Origin: Candidatus Contendobacter odensis Run_B_J11
GTDB taxonomy: Bacteria > Pseudomonadota > Gammaproteobacteria > Competibacterales > Competibacteraceae
Direction: 5' to 3'
Assembly (NCBI RefSeq): GCF_000531125.1
Contig: NZ_CBTK010000124.1
Coordinates: 1 to 39,490 of the forward strand
Length of the DNA: 39,490 bases
Positions within the stretch are counted from its first letter, which is position 1, and each line of letters opens with the position of its first letter. Under the pieces are notes generated by a model. The model did no database searches and had not been told where the DNA came from. It was given only the letters and a program-made list of their open reading frames with translations. Shown in pieces: positions 648 to 1,676 of this stretch. A program made the position numbers and the translations under genes.

Positions 648-1097
648 TTACGTTTTATCAATGCAGCGAAAGAAGTTTTTGGGAAAAAAGTCCAGATCGT
701 AGTCGATCGATTTCATGTCGCTAAATTATATGGAAAGAGGTTGGATGAATTACGCAAAAAAGAGTTGGCGCGCCTGCGGAAGACCTTACCGAAAGAGCAA
801 TATAAAGAGTTAGAAGAGGTGATGTGGATTTTGCGTAAAAGACCTGATAATTTAGAGTTAAAAGACCAGGAAACTTTAGAAAAATTATTCCAGCACTCCC
901 CTCTTCTTAAACAAGCATATCAATTGAAAAATGAGTGAACAAATCTATTTGATAACAACATAGATCGCTGTCGCGGTAAGCAGAGAATTACCGGATGGAT
1001 GAACCGGGTTAAAAATAGTTCAGTCCATTGTTTTGATACGTTTTTAAAGACAGTAGAAGCCTATAAAAATGAGGTAGCAAATTATTTCCTCCTGTAA
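648..1097 (+). pseudogene. ISL3-family transposase, internal fragment with in-frame stop
   Basis: Reading in one frame from 648 gives residues ending in VVDRFHVAKLYGKRLDEL, the ISL3-family hallmark around a catalytic Asp, followed by a Lys/Glu-rich helix and HSPLLKQAYQLKNE. A TGA at 936-938 interrupts the frame, but family-like sequence continues in the same frame (TGWMNRVKNSSVHCFDTFLK, then EVANYF) as far as about 1088. There it runs into the inverted-repeat element, and the frame closes at 1095-1097. The N-terminus, the final catalytic Glu region and the C-terminus are missing. The gene is therefore dead three ways: 5' truncation, a nonsense codon and 3' interruption. Base composition is clearly more AT-rich than the chromosomal genes to the right. 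Confidence 0.75.
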
Positions 1098-1230
1098 ATT
1101 TTCCTGTGATCGGAATTGTGGGGCAGGCAGGTAAAATGAATATCATTTGGTTGGATCAATAGGTTAGATGCAGTCAACGCCTTAGCCTGACGCTGCTAAC
1201 CCTCGCCATCACAGGAAAATTTACAGGACC
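1088..1230. mobile_element. MITE-like element A (~143 bp)
   Basis: The left arm contains TCCTGTAAATTTTCCTGTGA (1090-1109) and the right arm its exact reverse complement (1209-1228); the match extends one base inwards. The two outermost bases do not pair (CC at both ends), unlike element B. No coding potential is seen in the ~98 bp centre. No target duplication is visible: 1080-1087 and 1231-1238 differ. It abuts the truncated end of the ISL3 fragment, so it probably inserted into it or came with a later rearrangement. Confidence 0.65.
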
Positions 1231-1238
1231 ATACCTTT

Positions 1239-1380
1239 CCTCCTGTAAATTTTCCTGTGATGGCGATGATTTGCGGCCTGGGCTAGAACATCGGCTTCAT
1301 CTAACTCTTTGATCTTGCTGAGAGGTGTGCGTTGTACTCACCCAACCCGTCGTGCGAATCACAGGAAAATTTACAGGAGG
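1239..1380. mobile_element. MITE-like element B (142 bp) with 8 bp target duplication
   Basis: Perfect 23 bp terminal inverted repeats span 1239-1261 and 1358-1380; the core is TCCTGTAAATTTTCCTGTGA. The unit is flanked by the direct repeat ATACCTTT at 1231-1238 and 1381-1388, which reads as an 8 bp target-site duplication. The target lies in the transposase fragment to the right (codons for Lys-Gly-Ile). The ~96 bp interior is non-coding and differs from element A. The length, perfect ends and duplication fit a non-autonomous element moved in trans. The end sequence and 8 bp duplication would be compatible with an IS256-like parent, which is inference only. Confidence 0.75.
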
Positions 1381-1676
1381 ATACCTTTGATTAAACTGTG
1401 TGTGTTTCCACTATATTTAAGTTTCACCATTTCAATTTTTTTGGAATAGTTTTTATCCTGAACACGGTCGTCTAAAACCAGGTAGGATTCACTACTATTA
1501 TTAATCAGTGGTTCAGCTCATTCCCATAACGTATGTGCAGTGTGCTTTTCACGCCGCAAATAATCATTAATGGCGTCATGGCTGACTTTCTCTAAATGAG
1601 CCGCTCGATTCGTACCGGTATAGTTCATCGGAGTACTGATGACGTACTCTACATACTGTTGCTTTGTGATTGTCAT
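1381..1676 (-). pseudogene. IS701/IS4-like DDE transposase, N-terminal fragment with in-frame stop
   Basis: On the minus strand an ATG at 1676 opens MTITKQQYVEYVISTPMNYT, followed by RAAHLEKVSHDAINDYLRRE. A TGA at 1520-1518 (codon 53) interrupts it, but the same frame continues with family-like sequence LVLDDRVQDKNYSKKIEMVK and KYSGNTHSLIKGI up to element B. The pattern (STP...NYT, VSHD...DYLRRE, VLDD.VQDK, YSGN) is typical of a group of DDE transposases annotated as IS701/IS4-like; the exact family needs a search. The rest of the protein is missing. It is AT-rich and non-functional. Confidence 0.6.

Follow-up and report, generated by a model that had tools for sequence, protein, structure and literature searches.

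The closest precedent for the elements described here is the Correia element (CREE/NEMIS), a Neisseria MITE with a form of about 155 bp, inverted ends of about 24 bp and a high copy number. Binding of IHF in vitro has been reported for its internal IHF site and a role of that site in end synapsis has been suggested; its ends carry TA, and in the sections cited here the mobilising enzyme was not known to the 2007 and 2009 papers (PMC2229807; PMC2649163). QMITE1, a MITE of Coxiella burnetii, is described in the cited sections as having a conserved WATCAANNNNTTR, a length of about 400 bp, a 21-bp TIR and duplications of 2 to 4 bp (PMC5896051), and WATCAANNNNTTR is given there and elsewhere as the IHF consensus (PMC5896051; PMC3281130). 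Among full insertion sequences, the ISMich2 group is described by Guerillot et al. (2014), in the part cited, as having a two-ORF transposase with a conserved -1 frameshift, within a superfamily that has IRs of 18 to 39 bp and duplications of 8 to 9 bp (PMC3942029).

The units analysed here are like the Correia element in being short MITEs with inverted ends, a high copy number and an internal IHF site, which here is predicted, and they are like QMITE1 in being MITEs with a conserved WATCAANNNNTTR. Nezha, a cyanobacterial MITE of about 134 bp with ends of about 24 bp and 8-bp duplications, is similar to them in its shortness, its end length and the size of its duplications. The units differ from QMITE1 in their length, their TIR and the size of their duplications. 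They differ from the Correia element in their AT-rich 8-bp duplication, in that an IS with the same ends was identified and in having the core at the midpoint in five genera, and these features, including a midpoint position held across genera, set them apart from both Correia elements and QMITE1. We rejected the possibility that the units are Correia elements themselves because their ends begin with CC or GG and their duplications are 8 bp long, whereas Correia elements have TA ends. No earlier account of this Competibacteraceae MITE was found in the open PubMed Central literature.

Two related units and their copies

The window, which is the whole stretch of 39,490 nucleotides that was analysed, is contig C124 of the 4.6-Mb, 319-contig assembly of Candidatus Contendobacter odensis Run_B_J11 and contains two units, A and B (Table 1). 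An initial annotation had reported four copies of a 20-mer, two units and an 8-bp duplication of ATACCTTT around B, and all of these were confirmed by coordinates and by shuffling. The 20-mer TCCTGTAAATTTTCCTGTGA occurred without mismatch at 1090 (+), 1209 (-), 1241 (+) and 1359 (-), and when the window was shuffled 100 times by dinucleotides, four matches were never reached (mean, 0.01). The perfect 23-bp ends ascribed to B and the copies of ATACCTTT on either side of it were present, as was TCCTGT twice per end, 6 bases apart. The idea that this repeat forms a double transposase-binding site is weak: of the 62 ends of 31 non-redundant units, 39 have the inner CCTGTG and 28 have the outer CCTGTA. 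No ORF of at least 60 aa was found within 1088-1380, and no known RNA family was found at gathering scores in 601-2100. Both strands of A and of B folded strongly as single-stranded DNA (z of -6.3 to -7.8), which the inverted ends alone would give.

Table 1. Positions of the two units and of neighbouring features in the window.
Feature	Position	Strand	Remark
Broken ISL3-family transposase gene	654..1087	+	ends at unit A
Unit A	1088..1230	+	MITE of subfamily A, 143 bp; left end CCTCC, right end GGTCC; without target duplication
Left terminal inverted repeat of A	1088..1110	+	sequence
Predicted IHF-like core of A	1154..1166	+	GATCAATAGGTTA, 8/9 defined positions of WATCAANNNNTTR; about 1 bp off midpoint
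Right terminal inverted repeat of A	1208..1230	-	sequence
Target duplication ATACCTTT, left copy	1231..1238	+	abuts A
Unit B	1239..1380	-	MITE of subfamily B, 142 bp; 23-bp inverted ends perfect; opposite-strand relative of A
Left terminal inverted repeat of B	1239..1261	+	sequence
Predicted IHF-like core of B	1302..1314	-	GATCAAAGAGTTA, 8/9 defined positions; 1.5 bp off midpoint
Right terminal inverted repeat of B	1358..1380	-	sequence
Target duplication ATACCTTT, right copy	1381..1388	+	sequence
Broken IS701-family transposase gene, N-terminal part	1381..1676	-	ends at B/A; extent by DNA match to L252

Unit A had been described as having the same ends as B, a different interior and no duplication. 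The absence of a duplication was upheld, since A is flanked by AATTATTT on the left and ATACCTTT on the right, and its two ends were found to be identical at 21 of 23 bases, with tips of CC and GG; the interior, however, proved to be related to that of B once it was reverse-complemented. With the ends left out, the interiors compared on opposite strands were identical at 55 of 96 positions and gave a score of 11, against a mean of -25.1 (sd, 5.2) for 2000 shuffles (z 6.9), compared to a z of 0.9 for the same strand. When the genome that contains the window (hereafter the own genome) was searched, A and B gave reverse-strand matches of about 70%, ends included. The relationship of the interiors on opposite strands argues that A and B are diverged subfamilies of one MITE of about 142 bp, read in opposite orientation. 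One further copy in the own genome (L026) looks intermediate between A and B by eye.

The 20-mer, with up to 3 mismatches allowed, had 55 + 58 occurrences in the own genome, and a reversed-pattern control had 0. At least 46 distinct units were recognised there, and the question of whether the interiors of the genomic copies form families was answered by 32 A-like and 12 B-like units, with 2 left unassigned by the script. Among the matches listed, a perfect, AT-rich 8-bp duplication was carried by 12 of the 45 own-genome units that have both flanks (7 A and 5 B), while non-self left/right flank pairs matched perfectly in 3 of 2025 cases. Other loci that share these ends and carry duplications of 8 bp, which had been named as a check on the MITE interpretation, are many and are dispersed in the own genome. 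Since the units are dispersed insertions with target duplications and not tandem, cassette-spaced sites, an integron attC array, raised beforehand as a reading that would overturn this interpretation, is not supported. The other 33 of the 45 units, among the matches listed, lacked a target duplication, even though near-identical copies have one. Their flank pairs scattered around the AT-rich background and, in the own genome and among the matches listed, none matched at 7 of 8 positions, so the missing duplications do not appear to have simply decayed. With a length of 142 to 143 bp, no transposase gene, 23-bp ends, many copies and, A itself excepted, duplications together with filled and empty sites (12 of 45 units; 7 empty sites for B), the units have the features of a MITE. 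By eye, some units are set in or directly beside the terminal repeat of another unit (L013, at about 1484-1520, and L022, at the right flank, 1520), and the AT-rich unit end may itself be an insertion target in these cases.

The ends were found in 19 of the 39 genomes and 8 of the 13 genera of the GTDB family, whose members are wastewater bacteria. A scan of 84,980 species for the exact pattern gave 41 stretches with a whole unit, each from Competibacteraceae/Contendobacter or from one of four proteobacterial MAGs; there were no plasmid matches, and viral contigs gave 0 exact pattern matches. Elsewhere in the family, a perfect duplication flanked 2 of the 29 units longer than 135 bp and 6 of the 28 shorter ones. 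Two further size classes share the same ends. Units of 118-120 bp (L112, L193 and L194 in genus g8; L133, L137, L141 and L147 in g2; L180 and L297 in g1) were found mainly in two other genera, and the g2 copies have ACACTACATGTAGTGTT-like palindromes. Units of 206-218 bp were found at L120 1309-1518, L176 115-312 and L186 124-329, and in these, by eye, a long palindrome, GAATCACGGAT ... ATCCGTGATTC, replaces the IHF core in mid-unit.

Insertion sites in broken transposase genes

The site occupied by B was compared to uninterrupted relatives of the broken IS701-type gene. A 232-aa ORF in L252 is continuous through the insertion site of B, and seven relatives from five genomes, which are part of the 18 DNA matches to this gene outside the own genome, are uninterrupted through the same site and lack the second copy of the 8-mer. 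The empty-site alignment starts at the first base of the 8-mer in six of the seven and at base 4 in L255, and exact ATACCTTT is present in two of the seven empty sites, both in genome G028. B inserted in a target adjoining A, inside the IS701-type transposase gene.

Unit A joins two unrelated broken genes, of ISL3 type and IS701 type, the arrangement that would follow if two copies had recombined or had been joined by a deletion, and A is most likely the trace of such an event involving two copies of the MITE. Recombination as the process behind the missing duplications in general was set aside on the count of non-self left/right flank matches, only 3 in the own genome among the matches listed. 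The same low count, together with the division of the assembly into 319 contigs, several of which have an end inside or near repeats, is consistent with another explanation, in which the duplication-free units, A included, are joins made by short-read assembly at 142-bp repeats and no real rearrangements took place. Copies with perfect duplications assembled from the same data, however, and the low duplication rate recurs in other assemblies, which are themselves fragmented; we regard assembly joins as a serious possibility whose chances fall somewhat below even. Separately, L097 (1360-1680) has a subfamily-A unit that precedes the 3' portion of an ISL3 gene and sits at almost the position in the gene that is seen in the window, with AACTATTT compared to AATTATTT at window 1060-1090 and with the unit in the opposite orientation. 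This position in the ISL3 gene, shared by L097 and the window, is a possible insertion hot spot.

Longer insertion sequences with the same ends

Longer insertion sequences with the MITE ends were found in L142 (same genus, about 1.5 kb) and in L132 and L242 (other genera), with the degenerate right end of L242 placed by eye. The full-length IS with these ends and with 8-bp duplications that had been anticipated was recovered with regard to its ends in all three, but not with regard to its duplications: no matching 8-mers were found at the edges of L142 and L242, and L132 starts at a contig end. In the own genome, one arm of a longer element bearing these ends lies at the edge of contigs C41, C101, C276 and C281, and the opposite arm was found at the ends of C56, C59 and C70 and also in C299. 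By eye, C276 and C56 share the 8-mer GAAAATTT and C281 and C59 share AAAAAATG, which makes two sharing pairs among four left and four right contig ends and leaves the other four without a partner. C299 (L079) contains ORF1 and the start of ORF2 followed by other DNA and is an interrupted fragment; no intact parent copy was found in the own assembly, which holds the contig-end pieces and this fragment. A search with the ORF2 transposase of L142 gave matches in 7 of the 39 family genomes and 0 in the own assembly.

The best profile match of ORF2 was NF033572 (transpos_ISKra4) for both L142 and L132 (E values of 1e-26 and 4e-32), at scores of 93.7 and 111.8 bits, respectively, which are under the NCBIfam cut-off of 205; the two ORF2 products are 53% identical. 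An A8 run was present at the ORF1/ORF2 junction in all four elements (L142, L132, L242 and L079), and ORF2 was assigned to the -1 frame from ORF coordinates for L142, L132 and L079 and by elimination for L242. The transposase is probably made by -1 frameshifting at the A8 run, as predicted from this arrangement. These elements are like the ISMich2 group (ISKra4 family, p-MULT 4) in their two-ORF transposase with a predicted -1 frameshift and in the range of their end lengths, and the 8-bp duplications of the MITE agree with those of its superfamily; they are unlike it in that the window units are geneless and in that the IS with the same ends scores under the NCBIfam ISKra4 cut-off.

Three other relationships were considered. 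When the MITE interiors were compared to L142, L132, L242 and L079, all eight local-alignment scores were within the shuffle range, so that none of the eight gave a signal that the interiors derive from the IS. ISL3 was rejected as a parent because the ISL3 genes examined were broken genes beside units, with the exception of L005. At L005 1490-1990 a MITE-type end is followed, by eye, by an ISL3-like N-terminal reading, and this could be another element that has the end in common, or one insertion nested in another. For ISAzo13 as a parent candidate, PF07592 gave 0 matches in the own genome and equally 0 in all 14 controls, so that the result does not discriminate.

The IHF-like core at the midpoint

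The 104 unit rows were grouped into 31 clusters at 80% interior identity. WATCAANNNNTTR was perfect in 13 of the 31 clusters and was present with at most 1 mismatch in 21, compared to 0.09 (maximum, 2) and 1.7 (maximum, 5), respectively, for dinucleotide shuffles. In 17 of these 21 clusters the match was no more than 2.5 bp off the midpoint; it was 7.5 bp off in L013, 9.5 bp off in L184 and more than 20 bp off in L185 and L188. We then aligned 23 non-redundant units of 141-146 bp from five genera, which were oriented with the centre masked. The B row is the window copy, since the first member, L009, has a deletion, and the 8 clusters whose lengths fall beyond 138-148 bp (118-132 bp and, for L013, 160 bp) were left out; L013 represents a nested copy of subfamily A and so is not independent. 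Pairwise identity among the 23 units was 87% in the core, 87% in the ends and 48% in the other interior, and the mean majority frequency was 0.92 for the eight core positions, 0.91 for the ends, 0.68 for the 4-base spacer and 0.62 for the other interior. In this alignment the core window ranked first of 84 in conservation, and the aligned core was 1-2.5 bp off the element midpoint in all 23 units. The core was perfect in 11 of the 23, was off only at the first (W) position in 7, which include subfamilies A and B, and was off otherwise in 5. Perfect cores came from genera g1, g3, g9 and g13, and a W-only core came from g4.

Forty further loci, 24 of them in one genome, were picked among the matches listed and scored for a core with at most 1 mismatch whose middle was 66-78 bp from the outer end. 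Such a core was found inside the end at 16 of the 40 loci and outside it at 1 of 40; without L276, a reused place, the counts were 15 of 39 and 1 of 39 (Fisher p 1.2e-4, which is indicative, as copies within a genome are related). Among these loci, the core was present in all six units of 138-148 bp whose partner end has no more than 5 mismatches (5/5 without L276), and L302, a 142-bp unit whose partner end has 6 mismatches, had none. The IHF core was also absent from the five clusters of 118-119 bp. Within the own genome, no extra conservation of the core over the other interior was found (P values of 0.29 for A and 0.76 for B), and G occupied the first core position in 25 of 29 A copies and 10 of 10 B copies. 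For the longer IS, the idea of a midpoint IHF site was rejected, since a single site lies close to the middle in L132 and in L142 whereas nine are scattered over L242. The own genome contains an IHF-beta gene above the profile cut-off and a second protein, L236, which matches PF00216 and resembles IHF-alpha.

Taken together, we propose that A and B are subfamilies of one non-autonomous Competibacteraceae MITE with the ends, of about 23 bp, of an ISKra4-related, ISMich2-like IS of the prokaryotic Mutator superfamily. The IS transposase would cut the MITE and insert it at AT-rich sites, duplicating 8 bp, and we infer this action in trans from the shared ends, the duplications and the empty sites that are read directly in the DNA. 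The explanation as a whole, in which an ISMich2-like transposase would move the MITEs in trans and a central IHF bend would help the ends to pair, has in our estimate a probability of about 0.8, a value lowered by the IS edges described above. For the bend itself, in which the predicted midpoint IHF site would bend the 142-bp unit so that both ends can pair in so short a DNA, we put the chances at roughly even.

The same MITE could instead have a central IHF site that serves the host or neighbouring genes through transcription control and not transposition, and, in the sections cited, the Correia IHF site is described as affecting mtrCDE transcription (PMC10969869; PMC2649163). Pure regulation needs no midpoint, however, whereas here the midpoint is fixed in dispersed units of five genera, and the window units sit between and inside broken transposase genes, so we consider this unlikely. 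We are comparably doubtful that the core has no IHF function and is either left over from common descent or a site for the transposase or another protein. The aligned units do look homologous, so that the position would be inherited, IHF is named from its consensus, and the core shows no extra conservation in the own genome; yet the other interior has diverged down to 48% identity while the core has stayed as conserved as the ends, and the letters that are conserved match the IHF consensus, with a freer 4-base spacer (majority base, 68% versus 92%). Finally, the first origin of the common MITE apart, it is very improbable that A and B arose separately, as first annotated, by internal deletion from a parent IS or by end capture around unrelated DNA. 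The ends alone are common to the units and the longer IS, but A can be aligned with B along its whole length when the strands are opposed (z 6.9), and a copy intermediate by eye (L026) occurs in the same genome.

The proposed movement in trans with a central IHF bend could be taken further, tentatively and at what we judge to be slightly unfavourable odds. The 142-bp unit would be a minimal "folding" transposon in which, besides the ends, the midpoint IHF bend alone is under clear selection and the arm lengths are held, allowing DNA below one persistence length (about 150 bp) to synapse its ends. The transposition complex of this Mutator-superfamily element would then require IHF as an obligate component, and the 118-bp class would proceed by another route.

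The pairing of the two ends of a very short MITE poses a mechanical problem, and participation of IHF in it has, in the sections cited, only been suggested, for Correia elements (PMC2229807; PMC2649163). The present case combines a MITE, an IS that shares its ends and a midpoint IHF-like site conserved across genera, and this combination makes the idea that IHF helps to pair the ends open to direct test.
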